Shown here: positions 52,537 through 60,170 of the stretch, one piece after another
Numbering within the stretch: position 1 is the first letter of the stretch
Layout of the letters: each line of letters starts with the position of its first letter
Source of the DNA: Methylococcus sp. EFPC2
GTDB lineage: Bacteria; Pseudomonadota; Gammaproteobacteria; Methylococcales; Methylococcaceae
Length of the DNA: 64,000 bases
Assembly (NCBI RefSeq): GCF_016925495.1
Contig: NZ_CP070491.1
Coordinates: forward strand, 2,108,001 to 2,172,000
Reading direction: 5' to 3'
Notes under the pieces: generated by a model
The model's input: only the letters and a program-made list of their open reading frames with translations
What the model was told of the DNA's origin: nothing
The model's database searches: none
Made by a program: the position numbers and the translations under genes

Positions 52537-53811
52537 TCAAAGCTTATGTTTGGCCGGATCGCCAGCCTCCGCGAGATGTCCGGCCAGCGGGCGCCGGTTG
52601 GCCCGCACGATGTCCCGAATCAAGGCCTCCGCGCCCTCCAGCTGACGGCTGTAAACCTCCGTTCGGTAGGCATCCGCCGGCAAGGGGGTCAGCGGTTCCA
52701 GCACCGGGCGACCGGGCGATCCGGTATCGATGCGCGCAAGCGCAGACAAGCCGGGACGCAAAGGATGGGCCTTGAGCTCTTCGGCCCGCAATCCGATGCG
52801 CACCGGAACCCGCTCGCGGATATGGATGTAGTTGCCGGTGGCGTTGTCCGGCGGCAGCAGGCCGAACACGCTGCCCGTGCCGGGCGCCAGCCCCAGCACC
52901 TCGCCGTGGTAGACGACGCCGGAGCCGTACAGGTCGACCGTGATCTCCACCGGCTGGCCGGGCCTGACGTGGGTCAACTCGTCCTCGAGGAAATTGGCGT
53001 CGATCCACAAATAATCCAGCGGCACGATGGCCAGCAGCGGCGTCTCCGGCTTTACCTGGTCGCCCGGCAGGATGGCGCGCTTGGCCACATAGCCCGAGGC
53101 CGGGGCGACGATGTCCTGGCGGACGCGGCTCAAGTACGCCTGCTTGAGCGCAGCCGCGGCCTGCCGGACTTTCGGGTTGTCCTCCGGTGTGGTGGCCTGC
53201 ACCCGCGCATCGGCGCCGGCCAATTCGGCGCGCGCCTGGCGAACGTCCGCTTCGAGTTCGCGGAAATGGTATTCGGTATCTTCGACCTGCTGTCCCGACA
53301 CCGCGCCCTCGCCGGCCACGCTGCGGTAACGGGATAGATCGCGGCGCACGCGGTTCAGCATTGCTTCCTTGGCGGCGAGTTTCTCACGCAATTCCTCGCT
53401 CCGGCTAAACAGGGTTTCGACCTCGCGCACGGCATCCGCCAGATCGGCCTCGGCCTGCTCCAAGGCGACCTGAGCCTGCAATCCGTCCAGGCGCACCAGC
53501 ACATTGCCCTGCCGGACGTACTGGGTGTCGTCGGCGCGGACATCGACGACCGTACCGCTGGTCTGCGCCTTGAGGGGGACCAAATTGCCCGCGACATAGG
53601 CGTCGTTGGTGACGACGTAGCGGCTGGCGCAGACCCGCCAGTAAAGCGCGTAGCCTAGCCCCGTGACCAGCACGAGAACGGAAATCACGGCCAGCCGGTG
53701 GGTACGCCGATCCAGCCGCTCGCGGTAGCGCAGGCTGCGGACCGTGTGTTTTTTCACCAGTCGCCTGATCGCTTTGATTCCAGTGGGCTTGCCTTCGTGT
53801 CGTTTGCTCAT
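52537..53811 (-). CDS. EmrA/HlyD-family membrane fusion protein
   Basis: The 424-residue adaptor starts at 53811, overlapping the outer membrane factor stop (ATGA); an upstream extension of the frame is only a shadow. A basic N terminus precedes one membrane helix (about 41-60). Then come a biotinyl-lipoyl half (Val-Pro-Leu-Lys-Ala-Gln-Thr-Ser-Gly-Thr-Val), a long coiled coil (about 115-235), the second half (Ile-Val-Ala-Pro-Ala-Ser-Gly-Tyr-Val) and a beta-barrel (Pro-Gly-Gln-Pro-Val-Glu-Ile-Thr-Val-Asp). It links the MFS pump at 55277 to the outer membrane channel at 53808. Confidence 0.92.
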   Translation of the reverse strand: MSKRHEGKPTGIKAIRRLVKKHTVRSLRYRERLDRRTHRLAVISVLVLVTGLGYALYWRVCASRYVVTNDAYVAGNLVPLKAQTSGTVVDVRADDTQYVRQGNVLVRLDGLQAQVALEQAEADLADAVREVETLFSRSEELREKLAAKEAMLNRVRRDLSRYRSVAGEGAVSGQQVEDTEYHFRELEADVRQARAELAGADARVQATTPEDNPKVRQAAAALKQAYLSRVRQDIVAPASGYVAKRAILPGDQVKPETPLLAIVPLDYLWIDANFLEDELTHVRPGQPVEITVDLYGSGVVYHGEVLGLAPGTGSVFGLLPPDNATGNYIHIRERVPVRIGLRAEELKAHPLRPGLSALARIDTGSPGRPVLEPLTPLPADAYRTEVYSRQLEGAEALIRDIVRANRRPLAGHLAEAGDPAKHKL

Positions 53812-55280
53812 GGTTGCGTGCCGGATGCCGGCTGGGTCTGGGGATTTTCGTAGCCGCCGCCCAGGGCGGCGATCAGGCCGACGGCGGCTTGCAGATGCTC
53901 GGATCGAAGTTCGCTGGCTTTCAGGCGCTGTTCGATCAGCCTGGTTGCCGCGTCTATCTCGCCGTCGCGGGTGCTCAAGCCCGCCTGGAATCGGCGCTCG
54001 GCCAACTCGGCTTCCGCCTCCGCGGCCGCCAGCGCCCGCTCCTGGGTGGCGTCGTGATCCAGGGTTTCCCGCCAATGGGCCAATGCATCGGCGACTTGCT
54101 GCACCGCGGCCAGCAAGGCCGCGTTGTAGCCCTCCACCGCACCGGCGTGGGCCGCCTGCGCGTGCTTCAGCTCGGCCTCCAGGCGGCCGCCTTCGAAGAT
54201 CGGCAGGGTCACGGTCGGCCCTATCGAATAGGCGACACTGGCTCCGTGGGACAGAAACAAGTCCTTGAGATTGAGGCTGCGCAGCCCGGCGAAACCCACC
54301 AGATCGACGTCCGGATAGAAGTTGGTCTCGGCCACTTTCACCAAACGAGCCGCCGCCTCCGCGCGCCAGAGCGCCGCTGCCACGTCGGGCCGGTGAGCCA
54401 GCAACCCCAGGGGTAGCCTTTCGGGCAGGGGGAAGCGTTCCGCATAGGCGCCGGCGGAAATGCGGATTTCCCGTCCCCAGTCGGGCCCTCGTCCGGCGAG
54501 GGCGGCGAGCCGGTTGCGCAGCGTTTGCGCTTCGGCATGCAAATGGCTTTCCCGTTGATGGGCATCTTGCAGCTTTTGCTCGTCTTCGTGCACCGGATCC
54601 TGTGCTTCCAAGCCGCGCTCCCAACGCAAACGGGCGAGACGCAGCTTTTCCGCGGATTTTTCCACCCGGGCGTGCGCCCAGGCGATGGCCTCCTCGGTCG
54701 AACCGAGCAGGAAATATGCGCGCGCCACCGCCGTGCTCAGCAGCAGGCGCGCCGCGGCGAGCTCCGAGGCTTCCGCCTTTTCCTGGCCCAGCGCCGCCTC
54801 CAGATTCGCCTTGTCCTTGCCCCAGAGATCCAGGTGGTAATTGAAAACCGCGGGATCGAGGTAGGCACCGGTGTAGGTGTGGCCGCCGGCGGGCCCGTAA
54901 AAATCGGTGGAGGAAAACCGGCGCCGGTGCAGATCGGCGCGGGCCCCCACGCTGGGCAACAGGTCCGCCGCCCGGTAATCGGCCGCGGCTTCGGCCTGGC
55001 TCAGGCGCGCGACCGCGACCTTGAGCGTCGGGCTGCCGGCCAGCGCCGCTTCGATGACCCGGTTGAGCTCGGCATTGTGAAAATCGACCCACCATTTTTC
55101 CCGGGGCCAGCGCTTCACGATGCGCTCGGCAGCCGGATCCGCGCTCAAAGTCCGCGATTCGCCGGACAAATCCATGAGCCTGGCCTGCACGCCGCCGCCG
55201 GGCAACGGCATGCAGGCGGTGAGCAGCGCGGACAGGCCGAGCAGGGTGAATGCCGGACCGACGGTTCGACGGAGACTCAT
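53808..55280 (-). CDS. NodT/TolC-family outer membrane factor lipoprotein
   Basis: The 490-residue protein has a lipoprotein signal with lipobox Leu-Leu-Thr-Ala-Cys (Cys23). Two TolC-type repeats follow, each with a long helical hairpin; Leu-Pro-Ser-Val-Gly-Ala and Tyr-Pro-Asp-Val-Asp-Leu are the conserved strand entries. It forms the exit duct of the tripartite pump. Its ATG overlaps the stop of the MFS gene and its stop overlaps the adaptor start, so all three are translationally coupled. Confidence 0.93.
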   Translation of the reverse strand: MSLRRTVGPAFTLLGLSALLTACMPLPGGGVQARLMDLSGESRTLSADPAAERIVKRWPREKWWVDFHNAELNRVIEAALAGSPTLKVAVARLSQAEAAADYRAADLLPSVGARADLHRRRFSSTDFYGPAGGHTYTGAYLDPAVFNYHLDLWGKDKANLEAALGQEKAEASELAAARLLLSTAVARAYFLLGSTEEAIAWAHARVEKSAEKLRLARLRWERGLEAQDPVHEDEQKLQDAHQRESHLHAEAQTLRNRLAALAGRGPDWGREIRISAGAYAERFPLPERLPLGLLAHRPDVAAALWRAEAAARLVKVAETNFYPDVDLVGFAGLRSLNLKDLFLSHGASVAYSIGPTVTLPIFEGGRLEAELKHAQAAHAGAVEGYNAALLAAVQQVADALAHWRETLDHDATQERALAAAEAEAELAERRFQAGLSTRDGEIDAATRLIEQRLKASELRSEHLQAAVGLIAALGGGYENPQTQPASGTQP

Positions 55281-57001
55281 GGCGCCTCCATCCGTGAGCT
55301 TAAAGCGTTTCCGCGTGTGGCTTCCCCGCGCTTGACCCGCCTTGGACGACCCACCGGCTCGGCCAGCCAGACCAGGGCCGCCAGGGCGATAAAGGCCCAG
55401 GCACAAAAGCGAAACGTGTCGTCCAGCCCGAGGATCGCGGCGTGCCGGCCCGCCACGCCGGCGAGACCCGCCACGGCTTGCGCATCTTGCAGGCCGGCGG
55501 AGTGCAGCGTGGAGATCATTGCGCCGGACAGCGGATCGTAGGCGGTCAGGCCTTCGGCCAGGCGGCTCTGGTGGAACGCGGCGCGCCGCTCCCACAACAC
55601 GCCCAGCAGCGGCGACGCCACGCTGCCGCCCAGCACGCGCAACATGCCGCCCAGTTCCACCGCCTGTATCTGCCTGCGCGGCGTCAGGCCGGAAAGAAAC
55701 AGCGTGGTCAGCGGCACGAACAAGCCGCCCAGGCAGAAGCCCTCCAAGACCTGCGACCACAAGACGTTGGTAAACAGGCTGCTGCGCCCGAAAAAATCGT
55801 AGCGGCTGGTCCAGTAGCAATAAGCCGCGAACGCCAGCAGGTTGAGGCTGGCCAACAGGCGCGCGTCGCGGCCTTGCGCATAACGGTGGAAAAATGCCGC
55901 CATGGGTTTGGCAAAAAATATCAAGGGCAGAAGCACCGAACCGGCCAGCAGCGAGGAATAGCCGGACACCGCCTGCAGGCGCACCAGCAGGACGGAAAGC
56001 AGGCCATACATGAACAGGAAACCCAGGCTCAGCACGAGGGTGGCCACGGCGAAATTGCGCCGGGCGAACAGCCTCAGGTCCAGCAAGGGGGTCCTGGCGC
56101 CCAGCTCCCAGGCGATGAAGCCGGCCAGCGCCGTGATGCCCAGACAGGCCAGCGCTACGAGCGGCGCCGAGTTGTACCAGTCTTCGTCCTGCCCGCGGTT
56201 CAATACCGTCTGCAAACAGCCCAGCGCCAAGACCAGCAGAACAAAGCCGACGCGATCGAAAGGAGGCGAGCGGCGCTCCGCCGTGCGCTCGATCAGCAAG
56301 GCCCAGCCCAGTCCGGCCGAGACCAGCAGCAGCGGAATGCTCAGATGAAACAGCCAGCGCCACCCCCACTGATCGGCGATCCAGCCTCCTGCGTAGGGCC
56401 CCAGGGTGAATGGGCTCAGGGCCGCGAGGCTCCATAAGGCCACGGCGTAAGCCTTCTGCGACTCGGGGTATTCCCGCATCAACAGGGTCTGCGACAAAGG
56501 CAGCGTGAGTCCGCCGAAAAATCCCTGCAACACCCGGCCCAGCACGAACGCGCTCAAATCTCCGGTGCTAGCGCAGATCAGCGAGCCGAGCGCGATGACG
56601 AGCAGGGAAAACAGGTAGAGGCGGACTTCGCCGTAGCGTGCGGCCAGCCAGGCGCTGATGGGCAGGGAGATCGCCAGGCTGACGAAGTAGTAGCTCTGCA
56701 GCCAGGACGCGTGGCTGGGGCTGACACCCAGATCGCCCGTGGCGTGCAGGCTGATGGAAGCGAAAGCGCCGGTGTTGAAAAGGACCAGCAGATTGCCCAA
56801 CAGCAAGCCGAAATTGAGCAGGAAGAATTGCACGCCGGTCAGGGCACTGGCGCCGTTCCGGGCTTTGTTCAGGCTGTCGTGGGTGAGCGGTGCCCAGGCG
56901 GCGCGGGCGTTCTTGTCGGCGGATGTCATGCGTCGGAGCGATAAGGAATGGAGGCTGGATGGCCCAGTCCATTGCAGCTCCCGTGCCGGGCGCGCGGACA
57001 T
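55277..57001 (-). CDS. EmrB/QacA-type MFS drug transporter (DHA2)
   Basis: The product is 574 residues from ATG 57001; an internal ATG at 56929 would drop 24. It has about fourteen hydrophobic segments, motif A (Ala-Ala-Arg-Tyr-Gly-Glu-Val-Arg) and motif C-like Leu-Gly-Pro-Tyr-Ala-Gly-Gly-Trp-Ile-Ala. These are typical of 14-helix proton antiporters of the EmrB class. With the adaptor and outer membrane factor it should expel hydrophobic toxic compounds across both membranes. It is first in the operon. No regulator is adjacent. Confidence 0.92.
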   Translation of the reverse strand: MSARPARELQWTGPSSLHSLSLRRMTSADKNARAAWAPLTHDSLNKARNGASALTGVQFFLLNFGLLLGNLLVLFNTGAFASISLHATGDLGVSPSHASWLQSYYFVSLAISLPISAWLAARYGEVRLYLFSLLVIALGSLICASTGDLSAFVLGRVLQGFFGGLTLPLSQTLLMREYPESQKAYAVALWSLAALSPFTLGPYAGGWIADQWGWRWLFHLSIPLLLVSAGLGWALLIERTAERRSPPFDRVGFVLLVLALGCLQTVLNRGQDEDWYNSAPLVALACLGITALAGFIAWELGARTPLLDLRLFARRNFAVATLVLSLGFLFMYGLLSVLLVRLQAVSGYSSLLAGSVLLPLIFFAKPMAAFFHRYAQGRDARLLASLNLLAFAAYCYWTSRYDFFGRSSLFTNVLWSQVLEGFCLGGLFVPLTTLFLSGLTPRRQIQAVELGGMLRVLGGSVASPLLGVLWERRAAFHQSRLAEGLTAYDPLSGAMISTLHSAGLQDAQAVAGLAGVAGRHAAILGLDDTFRFCAWAFIALAALVWLAEPVGRPRRVKRGEATRGNALSSRMEAP

Positions 57002-57139: not shown

Positions 57140-57391
57140 TCAATGCCGTCCATCCCGCAAAGCCCGGGCGATCCGCGTCCGCGCGGGCTCGCTCAGTTTC
57201 AAGGAAGCATTCCCGAGTATCCGGGTTTCCAGTTCCGCCGTGGCCCGGTGCAGCCAGCGCATCTGCGCGGCGAAACTCCGGCAGCCGTCGCACATCATCA
57301 GATGCAGGCGCAAGGCGATCCGCTCCCGCAACGACAAGGGGGTGTCCAGCCTCCGCGACAGCAGCAGGCTGGTTTCACGACAATTCATCAT
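57140..57391 (-). CDS. Zinc-finger anti-sigma factor
   Basis: The 83-residue soluble protein has the anti-sigma zinc motif His30-x3-Cys34-x2-Cys37 plus Cys4. Its start overlaps the end of the sigma gene (ATGA). It should bind and silence the ECF sigma factor encoded just upstream until a metal or redox signal releases it. It has no membrane segment, so the signal is probably sensed in the cytoplasm. Confidence 0.82.
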   Translation of the reverse strand: MMNCRETSLLLSRRLDTPLSLRERIALRLHLMMCDGCRSFAAQMRWLHRATAELETRILGNASLKLSEPARTRIARALRDGRH

Positions 57392-58011
57392 CGATCGAGC
57401 TCCCGTTCGTTCGGTTCGCCGAAGCCGTTATGTTCCAGGCACAGCCTCAGGCTCATGCGCGCCCGATAAAGCACCACACCCGCGTTAGTCGCCGAAATAC
57501 CCAACGCCTTACAAATCTCCTCATTGCTGTCGCCGTTCAACTCCCGCAGCACGAACAACTGGCGCTGTCTGGGTACCAGACGCTCGACACAGCGCTGCAA
57601 AACCTCCCAGAATCGGGCATTTTCCAGGGACTTGGCCGGGTCGCTCCAGGCGGCCGGCTTGCTCACCCAGTGCCCTTCGGCGGCGAAAAAATCCCCTGCC
57701 CCGGAGTCTTCGTCGGCCGGATCGCCATCTGCGGCGTCGGAGTAAGGTATTTCCCGGTATTGGCGGCGCAGCTGATCGAACAGCTTGTGCTTGAGTATGC
57801 CGGTCAGCCAGGTGCGCTCCGAGGCGCGGCCGTCGTAACCCTCCCGGCCCTTGAGCGCCGCCAGCAGGGTTTCCTGCACCAGGTCCTCGGCCAGGGCAAC
57901 GTCCTGCACCCGCACCAGGGCATAGCGGTAGAGATAATCGCCGTAGGCGTCCAGCCAGGTCTCGGGGGCGGTGCTTACTCGGTCGTCCGGCGGTATGGCG
58001 GAGGGTGGCAT
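57388..58011 (-). CDS. ECF RNA polymerase sigma factor
   Basis: ATG 58011 gives 207 residues; a TTG at 58080 would extend it but lacks a convincing site. Region 2 has Ala-Glu-Asp-Leu-Val-Gln-Glu-Thr-Leu-Leu-Ala-Ala-Leu, then Thr-Trp-Leu-Thr-Gly-Ile-Leu-Lys-His-Lys. Region 4 has Leu-Arg-Glu-Leu-Asn-Gly-Asp-Ser-Asn-Glu-Glu-Ile-Cys and Leu-Gly-Ile-Ser-Ala-Thr-Asn-Ala-Gly-Val. The Gly-His-Trp...Pro-Ala-Ala-Trp linker is typical of ECF factors next to bufferin genes. It is divergent from bufA and probably drives it. Confidence 0.9.
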   Translation of the reverse strand: MPPSAIPPDDRVSTAPETWLDAYGDYLYRYALVRVQDVALAEDLVQETLLAALKGREGYDGRASERTWLTGILKHKLFDQLRRQYREIPYSDAADGDPADEDSGAGDFFAAEGHWVSKPAAWSDPAKSLENARFWEVLQRCVERLVPRQRQLFVLRELNGDSNEEICKALGISATNAGVVLYRARMSLRLCLEHNGFGEPNERELDR

Positions 58012-58053
58012 GCGGAATCTCGGGTAAATTGACGGGGCTGAGGGAAGAGCCTT

Positions 58054-58078
58054 GTAAGAAAGACCTCCGCTGTGCGAC
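58054..58078 (+). promoter_or_regulatory. Possible ECF promoter for the buf operon
   Basis: GTAAGA and CGAC lie 15 bases apart, about 80 bases upstream of bufA. This loosely resembles the GTAAC/CGAA pattern of ECF-dependent bufferin promoters. It is a guess from pattern and position. Confidence 0.3.
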
Positions 58079-58160
58079 AAAGCGAGGAGTCCTAGGGCTC
58101 GGGCCGGCGAGGCCGGTTCATCTACGGCTATATCATAACCACTTAGAGAGGTAGTTCATC

Positions 58161-58430
58161 ATGAAGCAAGCTCCTTACCGCTCCGGCCTGTTGCTGGCCA
58201 CCGCCGCCGCCGCCCTGTTCGCCAACGGCACGACGCTGGCCGCGGAAAAAGACGGAGCCCAGGAAGCCAAGGTCCAATGCGCCGGCATCAATGCCTGCAA
58301 GGGCCAGTCGGCTTGCAGCACCGCCAGCAATGCCTGTTCCGGACAAAACGCCTGCAAGGGCCAGGGCTGGCTGTACGCCGCCAACAAGGCCGAATGCGAG
58401 GCCAAGGGCGGCAAGGTCATCTCCAAGTAA
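58161..58430 (+). CDS. bufA: Bufferin precursor peptide, BufA2-like
   Basis: The 89-residue precursor has a Sec signal (residues 1-29, ending Thr-Leu-Ala-Ala). The Cys-rich core has six cysteines in a repeated pattern: Asn-Ala-Cys-Lys-Gly-Gln, Ser-Ala-Cys, Asn-Ala-Cys-Ser-Gly-Gln, Asn-Ala-Cys-Lys-Gly-Gln, then Glu-Cys-Glu. This is the bufferin type, ribosomally made and modified by a DUF692 enzyme, that buffers copper in the periplasm. The next two genes are the enzyme and its partner. A GAGAGG ribosome binding site precedes the ATG. Confidence 0.88.
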
Positions 58431-58438
58431 GCTCCAGC

Positions 58439-58464
58439 GCGGAGCCGGCAAACGCCGGCTCCGC
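58439..58464 (+). promoter_or_regulatory. GC-rich hairpin between bufA and bufB
   Basis: GCGGAGCCGGC (58439-58449) and GCCGGCTCCGC (58454-58464) form a perfect 11-base stem with loop AAAC, nine bases after the bufA stop. There is no T-run, so it probably stabilises bufA mRNA or partly attenuates read-through, giving more precursor than enzyme. Confidence 0.7.
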
Positions 58465-58485
58465 CATCCCACGAAGAATTCATCC

Positions 58486-59373
58486 ATGCTGCAACACCGC
58501 GAGCGTCCTTACCTGGGCTACGGCTTGGGGCTGCGCAAAGAACATTACGAAACCATATTGGCGGAAAAACCGCCTCTGGAGTGGTTCGAGATCATCACCG
58601 AAAACTATCTGGTGGATGGCGGCAAGCCGCTGCATTACCTGGAGCGCATCCGCGCGCACTACCCCATCGTCATGCACGGGGTCTCATTGTCCATCGGCGG
58701 TACGGACCCGTTGGACTTCGGCTACCTGGCCAAGGTCAAAGCCCTGGCGAAAGACATCGAAGCGGCCTGGATCTCCGACCATGTGTGCTGGACCGGCGTG
58801 AACGGCATCAACCTGCACGACCTGCTCCCGCTGCCTTATACCGAGGAAACGCTGCGCCACGTCTGCGAGCGCATCGCCCGAGTCCAGGATTTCCTCGGCC
58901 GGCGCATCCTCATGGAAAATCCGTCCAGCTATCTGAGCTTCGGCCACTCGGAAATGAGCGAATGGGAATTCATCGCCGCCATGGCGGAACGCGCCGATTG
59001 CCTGCTGCTGCTGGACGTCAACAATATCTACGTCAGCGCCCGCAATCACGGCTTCGATGCCGGGCAATACCTTGCCCGGATACCCGCCGAACGCGTCTGG
59101 CAAATCCATCTGGCCGGCCATTCCGACTACGGCGATCTGGTCATCGACACCCACGACCATCCGGTGGCGGACCCGGTGTGGGCCTTGTACGAGGAAGCGA
59201 TACGCCATTGCGGACCGGTTTCCACCATGATAGAGCGCGACGACGCCATCCCGCCCCTGGCGGACTTGCTGGACGAACTGCAACTGGCGCGCGACGCCGC
59301 CGGTCGGGCATTGCAGGATCGCGGCCGCAAACACGCCGAAACGCTCGGGACCCCGGAAGACTTATGGGCTTGA
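58486..59373 (+). CDS. bufB: Multinuclear iron oxidase BufB (DUF692)
   Basis: ATG 58486 gives 295 residues; the longer frame is bufA shadow. The TIM-barrel DUF692 enzyme shows the metal ligands expected of MNIO proteins. These are the His of Met-His-Gly-Val-Ser-Leu, Ser-Asp-His-Val-Cys-Trp, Met-Glu-Asn-Pro, Leu-Asp-Val-Asn-Asn, His-Leu-Ala-Gly-His and Asp-Thr-His-Asp-His-Pro. It would use iron and oxygen to convert Cys residues of BufA into metal-binding heterocycles. It overlaps bufC by ten bases. Confidence 0.92.
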
Positions 59374-60170
59374 AAAACGAAGTACCCTTGGCCGAACTGC
59401 AGCGGCGCTTCCAGGCCGCCGTCCTGAGCGGCGAGCCGGGCGCACCCGGCTTCGTGGCCGCCGAGACGCCCGAGGCGGCGGAGCAGCGTTTTCGCGTTTA
59501 TCACGACGCCTACCGGCTCCGCCTGGCCGAAGCCCTGGGCGCGGACTACCCGGCCCTTCGCGCCGTCATGGGTGCCGGGGCTTTCGCCGAGCTGGCTTAC
59601 GCCTACGCGGAAACCGTGCCGTCGAGGCATTATTCCATCCGCTGGGCGGGGGCGAGCCTCGCCGAACGGCTGTCCGGTCATCCGGGCCTGGCCGACCTGG
59701 CGCGCTTCGAATGGGCACTGAGCCTGGCTTTCGACGCGGCCGACGCGAGCCCGCTGGAGGTGGCCGCGCTCAGCGCCGTCCCACTGGAGCACTGGCCCGA
59801 CTTGCGGCTGCACTTTCATGCGTCCCTGCAAATTTTTGAATTGCGCCACGACGTGGCGCCGCTGTGGCGGGCCGCCACGGACGACGCAGCCCTGCCCGAA
59901 ATGCCGGCCGAAGAAAATCCGCGCCCCTGGCTGGTATGGCGCCGGGGGCTGAGCGTTTATTACCGTGTCCTGGACGACAACGAAGGCTGGGCATTGCAAA
60001 CCGCCAGCAAGGGCGCGAGTTTCGCCGACTGGTGCGAAGAACTGAGCCTGCGCCTGGACGGCGGCGCCGACGCCGCCACCGTGGCCGCAAGCCTGCTTCG
60101 ACGCTGGGTGGACGACGAATTGGTCGTCGCTTACGAGTGTGGGAGCGGGTTTTCAGCCGCGCCGGATTGA
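59364..60170 (+). CDS. bufC: BufC partner protein (DUF2063)
   Basis: The 268-residue protein has an N-terminal DUF2063 domain ([13 protein letters not shown], then Ala-Leu-Gly-Ala-Asp-Tyr-Pro-Ala-Leu) that recognises the precursor and presents it to BufB. A winged C-terminal half follows, ending in [10 protein letters not shown]. The last ~10 residues are encoded by a REP-like sequence (60139-60159) and are likely a later addition. It is the last gene of the buf operon, convergent with the ABC gene. Confidence 0.88.
60139..60159 (+). repeat. REP-like half element at the bufC 3' end
   Basis: GTGGGAGCGG followed by TTCAG matches the left arm of the palindrome at 278. It encodes part of the final residues of BufC, so the stop codon lies beyond the element. 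Confidence 0.6.

Follow-up and report, generated by a model that had tools for sequence, protein, structure and literature searches.

A Buf2-type bufferin operon in Methylococcus sp. EFPC2 is probably controlled by a dedicated extracytoplasmic function (ECF) sigma factor, which a cytoplasmic anti-sigma factor of the zinc-cysteine kind would restrain in a self-limiting circuit. We analyzed a stretch of 64,000 nucleotides (nt) from this genome (contig NZ_CP070491.1, positions 2,108,001 to 2,172,000; hereafter the window), in which bufA2, bufB, and bufC diverge from the sigma factor gene. That gene overlaps the gene of a soluble zinc-type anti-sigma factor (ZAS). We establish the identities of these genes, a promoter motif that recurs in other genomes, and a constraint on synonymous sites of the sigma gene. 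The original prediction, made from the sequence alone, had described this arrangement, and its genes and coordinates are right to the base. The Buf2 type, the arsS targets, and the promoter motif inside the sigma gene go beyond it.

57140-57391, minus strand: soluble zinc-type (ZAS) anti-sigma gene, 83 amino acids (NF052368, 69.5 bits, cut-off 50; zf-HC2 PF13490 over cut-off)
57388-58011, minus strand: ECF sigma factor gene, 207 amino acids (TIGR02943, 181 bits, cut-off 162; ATG at 58011)
57485-57513, minus strand: predicted sigma-dependent promoter in the sigma gene, aimed at the anti-sigma gene (23.9 bits, best in the 64 kb window)
58053-58081, plus strand: predicted sigma-dependent promoter of bufA2BC (TGTAAGAAA-N13-CGACAAA; 0 mismatches, 79 nt before bufA)
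58161-58430, plus strand: bufA2, precursor (NF050166 BufA2, 88 bits, cut-off 60)
58486-59373, plus strand: bufB, MNIO bufferin maturase (NF050167, 395 bits, cut-off 310; PF05114, 384 bits)
59364-60170, plus strand: bufC, DUF2063 partner protein (PF09836, 66 bits, cut-off 27)

A Buf2 operon with a predicted sigma-dependent promoter

The gene order bufA-bufB(MNIO)-bufC(DUF2063) is that of the Buf2 cluster, with the start of bufC overlapping the end of bufB by 10 nt. We assign the precursor to Buf2, not to the DUF2282 (Buf1) type of Caulobacter, because it matches NF050166 over the cut-off and gives no DUF2282 match; the sole DUF2282 match of the genome sits elsewhere. BufA2 contains six cysteines, and its N-terminus, with a hydrophobic segment from residue 10, fits a Sec signal as read from the sequence. 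The HvfC model matched bufC with only 17 bits against a cut-off of 142.

The anti-sigma factor is of the soluble kind. Its ligand residues Cys4, His30, Cys34, and Cys37 coincide in position with those published for MseR, and all four are conserved without exception in the 88 aligned anti-sigmas, the window's included. HxxxCxxC, a further cysteine near the N-terminus, and the absence of a membrane segment are features of the MseR/HrsE kind. The most hydrophobic 19-residue stretch has a mean of 0.66, so no membrane helix is expected, and with 83 amino acids and no hydrophobic helix the protein falls outside the multi-span membrane (NrsF-type) anti-sigmas. This bears out the earlier description of a cytoplasmic HxxxCxxC regulator; the protein is small and cysteine-based, unlike NrsF and the predicted membrane protein RsqA. 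From its families, the anti-sigma factor is predicted to bind zinc and to hold the sigma factor; a search of solved structures returned a single match, at E=1. The sigma gene overlaps the start of the anti-sigma gene, directly downstream, by 4 nt, and an anti-sigma gene follows within 200 bp in 85 of 87 sigma genes.

A full match to a candidate promoter motif aims at bufA. The motif, TGTAAGRAA-N13-CGACNAA, was derived by eye from the regions upstream of the sigma genes in the window and in two sampled genomes (G009 and G020). In all three it has the same place and orientation, pointing away from the sigma gene. When the pattern TGTAAGNAA-N13-CGACNAA was searched with at most 1 mismatch, the bufA site was the only match in the genome and the reversed control gave none; the same search found 8 matches in G009 and 3 in G020 (control 1 each). 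We also built a matrix from 16 sites, all from other genomes, and scored it on the 64 kb window and six shuffled windows. The bufA site reaches 21.4 bits, second in the window, where the next match has 10.0.

The sigma gene's open frame extends up to a TTG at 58080. We rejected this codon as the start: it would overlap the bufA promoter, and the G009 and G020 homologues fit the ATG at 58011.

The motif recurs before bufferin precursors in genomes that played no part in its definition. Our survey sample comprised 111 Buf2 stretches from 86 genomes, two of them under the family cut-off, with flanks of about 1.5 to 5 kb or up to the contig end. We scanned up to 400 bp 5′ of the precursor in these and in 2 Buf1 stretches. 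At ≤2 mismatches, 7 of the 113 stretches carry the motif, the window included: G000, G040, G077, G253, G156, and G055 (Buf2) and G275 (Buf1). All but the first of these are independent of the motif's definition. The G275 cluster (L101) was considered as a Buf2 case and rejected, because by eye the precursor resembles Buf1, and the BufA2 list does not contain it. With the window genome left out and counts compiled by hand (sigma thresholds E 1e-20 and 1e-15), the motif precedes a Buf2 gene in 4 of 17 sigma-bearing genomes versus 1 of 68 without the sigma gene (Fisher p=0.005). Dropping sigma matches below 140 bits gives 4/11 versus 1/68 (p=0.001); we prefer the wider test. In G077, G156, and G055 the motif stands before bufA2 and the sigma gene is located in another part of the genome, evidence that the sigma factor acts at a distance.

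A full motif match also lies 5′ of bufA2 in G040 (L106, L006; genome 94% complete).

Several observations weigh against control of bufA by this sigma factor. One of the six shuffled windows reached 19.8 bits, the highest among them. In 13 of the 17 Buf2 genomes with the sigma gene, no motif (≤2 mismatches) precedes bufA2, and no sigma homologue was found in G040 at E≤1e-15 despite its motif. The 12-13 kb read around the closest sigma relatives, in G009 and G020, contain no buf genes. An ECF/ZAS pair occurs in only 4 of the 111 Buf2 stretches (the window, G380, G253, where it is convergent, and G332); a fifth, G240, has an ECF gene of another type. The last two points would suit an arrangement of chance neighbors, in which another copper regulator drives bufABC and the sigma factor controls, for example, arsS. 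We regard this as quite improbable: the full motif match aims at bufA, the window's only other strong site is the one inside the sigma gene, and the motif precedes bufA2 also where the sigma gene is distant. It is only the promoter evidence that upholds the earlier view of the pair as the switch of the bufferin operon.

The pair beside Buf2 is rare, recurrent, and undescribed in the main bufferin survey, which reports no sigma genes for the Buf2 type. Our literature search, from which subscription papers were largely absent, likewise found no report of Buf2 control by a ZAS pair. With this locus, a Buf2-type bufferin has a specific candidate regulator, together with a promoter open to tests of single bases. 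G240 was also tried as a ZAS case and rejected by eye: its sigma match is spread over two frames, and the longer frame that comes next has a hydrophobic stretch.

A promoter motif within the region 4 codons

The best-scoring site of the window lies inside the sigma gene, where it spells CKALGISATN in sigma region 4, has 2 mismatches to the pattern, and ends 93 nt before the anti-sigma start. Motif positions were counted at ≤2 mismatches over 87 sigma genes, the window's included, after removal of duplicates and of loci with no sigma match or more than one; one of the 87 has no upstream sequence. The motif is embedded in 50 genes, lies upstream and aimed away in 4, and lies upstream and aimed at the sigma gene in none. 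Its spacing to the anti-sigma match (70-107 nt) is set by gene geometry and is therefore not independent evidence.

We first took the embedded motif for mere coding sequence, and dropped this assumption after tests on synonymous sites. The discovery set comprised 65 sigma genes (those under 480 nt and near-duplicates dropped); the peptide C[KNQ]...T is present in 35 of them, and the counts below refer to these. Expected third-base values came from the codon usage of a few matched genes per locus. The codon before ACN has a third-base G in 33/33 cases (8.8 expected; z 9.6, top of 177 columns), cysteine is TGT in 33/35 (14.1 expected; z 6.9), and the codon after it ends in G in 27/35 (15.2 expected; z 4.6). 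The held-out set, the best 29 loci from 90 phylum genomes with a match, is mostly one family, with the peptide in 28 of 29. It repeats the bias: TGT 28/28 (13.2 expected), AAG 19/20 (6.7 expected), and the key third-base G 27/27 (7.1 expected), with a mean of 2.1 mismatches versus 3.9 expected. With one gene per genus, assigned by hand, TGT stands in 11/11 (p=6e-5) and the third-base G in 10/10 (p=4e-6).

A coincidence of region 4 coding that yields no transcript is the natural alternative. The motif overlaps the conserved residues C-K...T-N. Moreover, in the single-gene test, which lists 34 of 70 sigma genes (the remainder do not fit the peptide expression or have no usable stretch), the window site alone is weak, with 2 mismatches versus 3.8 expected (p=0.05). 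Strong third-base bias also occurs outside the motif (L59, z 8.1; G44, 6.2; G10, 5.2), so the z-values are inflated, and 37 of the 87 sigma genes lack the embedded motif. These points count against a hidden promoter. Set against them, the bias falls on synonymous positions, fits the intergenic motif, and is repeated in held-out genes. Where these dipeptides and tripeptides occur elsewhere in long frames, TGT is used in 1/8 cases in the window, 6/20 in held-out loci, and 12/28 in discovery loci, and third-base G in 3/8, 2/9, and 5/28, respectively. We therefore consider a coding coincidence unlikely, and find strong comparative support for a predicted internal promoter of the SigH-RshA type.

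The principle of internal-promoter feedback is already known from Corynebacterium glutamicum. There, rshA alone is transcribed from a SigH-dependent promoter inside sigH, starting 62 and 66 nt upstream of rshA, and a quick shutdown was proposed (PMC3489674). The system differs in belonging to another phylum, in having another promoter consensus, and in involving no ribosomally synthesized and post-translationally modified peptide; conservation of the embedded site is not mentioned in the part available (PMC3489674). Our literature search, again largely without subscription papers, found no report of such conservation in the present sigma family.

With a promoter of this kind for the inhibitor and none such seen before the sigma gene, the circuit should give a self-limiting pulse. 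If this is true, the hidden promoter would extend inhibitor feedback to a further sigma family, in which it would be deeply conserved. Two points tell against this picture. We found no sigma-70-type promoter before the sigma gene; in the scan for sigma-70 promoters and terminators, the numbers of sites did not exceed those in shuffles. The autoregulation reported for meningococcal rpoE speaks against a general rule of no self-activation. On balance, we lean slightly toward a wider reading in which this proteobacterial ECF family is doubly coded. Region 4 would then be both the promoter-reading helix and, in its codons, an own-sigma promoter for the inhibitor, with inhibitor feedback replacing the usual self-activation. 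The family would also join bufferins (copper) and arsS (arsenic type) into one response to thiophilic elements, via Buf2 here and via Buf1 or oxazolin-type clusters elsewhere.

In G009, the closest relative (L095, 5703-6256), two overlapping frames share the sigma gene between them, yet the genome still has motif matches; the split may reflect a pseudogene, a frameshift, or a sequencing error. A Halomonas plasmid homologue has one 2-mismatch site within its sigma match, from which the CG of the -10 is missing.

Related regulators, other candidate targets, and the inducing signal

The sigma factor groups with regulators of oxazolin-type operons. It is sister to the G020 protein (support 0.994), and both join four sigma factors of oxazolin operons from the same family (0.984). 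Five sampled genomes hold the ECF/ZAS pair in one operon with a KCG-repeat precursor and an MNIO gene: G023, G029, G031, and G006, of the same family as the window genome, and G203, of the same class. These operons also hold DUF2063 where the contig reaches that far. In G015, a sigma/anti-sigma pair lies downstream of a KCG-repeat/MNIO-type cluster. The tree placement therefore identifies the window regulator as one of the oxazolin-operon kind, here adjoining a Buf2 operon. Within its own genome, the sigma factor has no close homologue, only two further matches with 31-32% identity; a contig scan with the protein gave three distant loci and added nothing.

The original prediction had treated a soluble HxxxCxxC anti-sigma factor with such a cluster as new. 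This does not stand: the same type of pair occurs in the oxazolin-type operons of these five genomes, four of them from the same family, and soluble zinc-type anti-sigmas are established for MseR of Neisseria and HrsE of Haemophilus (PMC2893595, PMC7907618). Our findings suggest that a single kind of soluble zinc sigma switch is shared by Buf1, Buf2, and oxazolin-type clusters, depending on the genome.

Matches elsewhere in the genome point to an arsenic-type target. A divergent motif pair with 1 mismatch each (C1:3243880 and 3243940; L306, 7881-7969; C1:3243880-3243968) lies 41 nt before a frame encoding a VTT/FAD-oxidoreductase fusion and 39 nt before an arsS frame (TIGR04167, 455 bits, cut-off 300). 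Other genomes have motif matches before a TIGR04282 arsenosugar-type glycosyltransferase (G020), a CMD-family, peroxidase-like protein (G009), an FAD oxidoreductase (G325), and a DUF547 protein (G072). G009 also has the motif before a Buf1-like cluster, a thioredoxin-like protein, and a Cys-rich lipoprotein (all by eye), and has some further matches with no clear target. Two results count against the proposed control by this motif. A third 1-mismatch match in the window genome (C1:1128800; L286) precedes a small coiled-coil-like frame with no obvious metal tie, and may be due to chance or mark another target. At ≤2 mismatches, the genome has 21 matches versus 17 in the control; most of these matches are due to chance and give no basis for claiming a wider regulon.

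About 4 kb beyond the arsS motif pair lies a frame that resembles an arsenosugar-type glycosyltransferase by eye. A literature search on arsenosugar genes and sigma factors gave nothing relevant.

RpoE-MseR of Neisseria (NMB2140-2145) is alike in combining an ECF sigma factor with a small soluble ZAS anti-sigma factor with Cys4/His30/Cys34/Cys37, and its promoter has a related form (-35 GTMAGBWTT, -10 CGTCTAAH). It differs in forming a single operon with reported rpoE autoregulation, and the available text does not describe a promoter inside the sigma gene (PMC2893595). Counted by eye, the bufA site shares 6 of 9 letters with the -35 and 5 of 7 with the -10 of this consensus. RpoE2-HrsE of Haemophilus influenzae has a soluble ZAS anti-sigma factor and a sigma promoter that is only slightly self-activated, and one operon of the RpoE2 regulon encodes a DoxX-like protein. 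In contrast to the window pair, it controls msrAB and responds to HOCl, and the part of the source available makes no mention of Buf2 (PMC7907618). The Neisseria RpoE-MseR operon is said to hold an MNIO peptide cluster (gonophorin), and both sigma regulons reportedly contain such a cluster. In this respect, the available parts of the two papers name only a DoxX gene (PMC2893595, PMC7907618).

The gig cluster of Cupriavidus metallidurans is reportedly of the DUF2282 type. Its layout resembles the window's, with a divergent bufferin operon, gigPABT, and the sigma/anti-sigma genes rpoQ-rsqA; gigPABT is induced by copper and gold. It differs in that RsqA is predicted to be membrane-bound, and RpoQ control is not demonstrated in the part of the paper available (PMC10304878). 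The gig operons have been called bufferin clusters (PMC12452194). In Caulobacter, the sigF-nrsF operon adjoins the bufA1 operon (CC3254-3257) and there is a metal response. This system is of the Buf1 (DUF2282) type, has the six-helix membrane anti-sigma factor NrsF, and uses the promoter GTAACC-N16-CGAA, with the sigF promoter itself sigma-dependent (PMC3511200).

We propose the following sequence of events. In the unstressed cell, the zinc-bound anti-sigma factor would bind the sigma factor, as its family suggests. A thiol-reactive signal might disturb the Cys4/His30/Cys34/Cys37 site and free the sigma factor. It might be an oxidant, or else Cu(I), As(III), or another thiophilic metal or metalloid; this guess is guided by the targets and by RsrA. 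Going by the promoter motifs, free sigma factor would fire bufA2-bufB-bufC, the divergent arsS and VTT/FAD-oxidoreductase locus, and the anti-sigma gene from the promoter hidden in the region 4 codons. By analogy with its family, BufA2 would be matured in the cytoplasm by BufB/BufC, exported by Sec, and trap periplasmic copper (PMC12452194). To judge from the places of the motifs, the anti-sigma factor would rise without a rise in sigma factor, and the pulse would end.

That the inducing signal is an intracellular metal or oxidant, as the original prediction suggested, is plausible. A primarily oxidative signal (hypochlorite or peroxide) in place of a metal, with the bufferin as part of a response to oxidative envelope damage as for Haemophilus RpoE2, is possible but appears the less probable choice. 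In Haemophilus, rpoE2 expression rises with HOCl and H2O2 and RpoE2 controls msrAB (PMC7907618); RsrA, whose cysteines occupy the same positions, is oxidant-responsive (PMC2893595); and a thioredoxin-like gene carries the motif in G009. On the other hand, MseR was unresponsive to the oxidants tried in meningococci (PMC2893595), the targets here are copper- and arsenic-type genes, and the genome has two genes of the particulate methane monooxygenase/ammonia monooxygenase (pMMO/AMO) family (PF02461), a copper-dependent enzyme family. These two genes make it most likely that the genome is a methanotroph's. In such a host, with a copper-dependent methane monooxygenase, the predicted connection of copper buffering with arsenic-type genes opens the inducing signal to direct tests.

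Host genome and flanking genes

The genome (4.56 Mb, listed as 100% complete) has three MNIO genes: the Buf2 gene of the window and two others, which follow a DUF2282 (Buf1) precursor and a KCG-repeat precursor, respectively. The last (C1:2834830) looks oxazolin-like by eye; we found no sigma genes within the 10 kb read around it and no motif at ≤3 mismatches there.

Cysteine thiooxazole modification and copper binding are reported for bufferins (PMC12452194, PMC13097082). Among 126 aligned precursors, lysine is nearly universal after the second and fifth cysteines (110 and 106 cases) and is the commonest residue after the third and fourth (60 and 82 cases). BufA2 of the window has serine at the latter two positions, and fewer of its cysteines may be modified.

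A multidrug-type efflux set lies at 52537-57001 on the minus strand, with an MFS protein at 55277-57001 (Pfam) and, by eye, outer-membrane-factor-like and membrane-fusion-like frames. It begins 138 bp downstream of the anti-sigma gene and has the same orientation; no terminator-like site is listed in between, and it is possible that it is co-transcribed with the sigma and anti-sigma genes.

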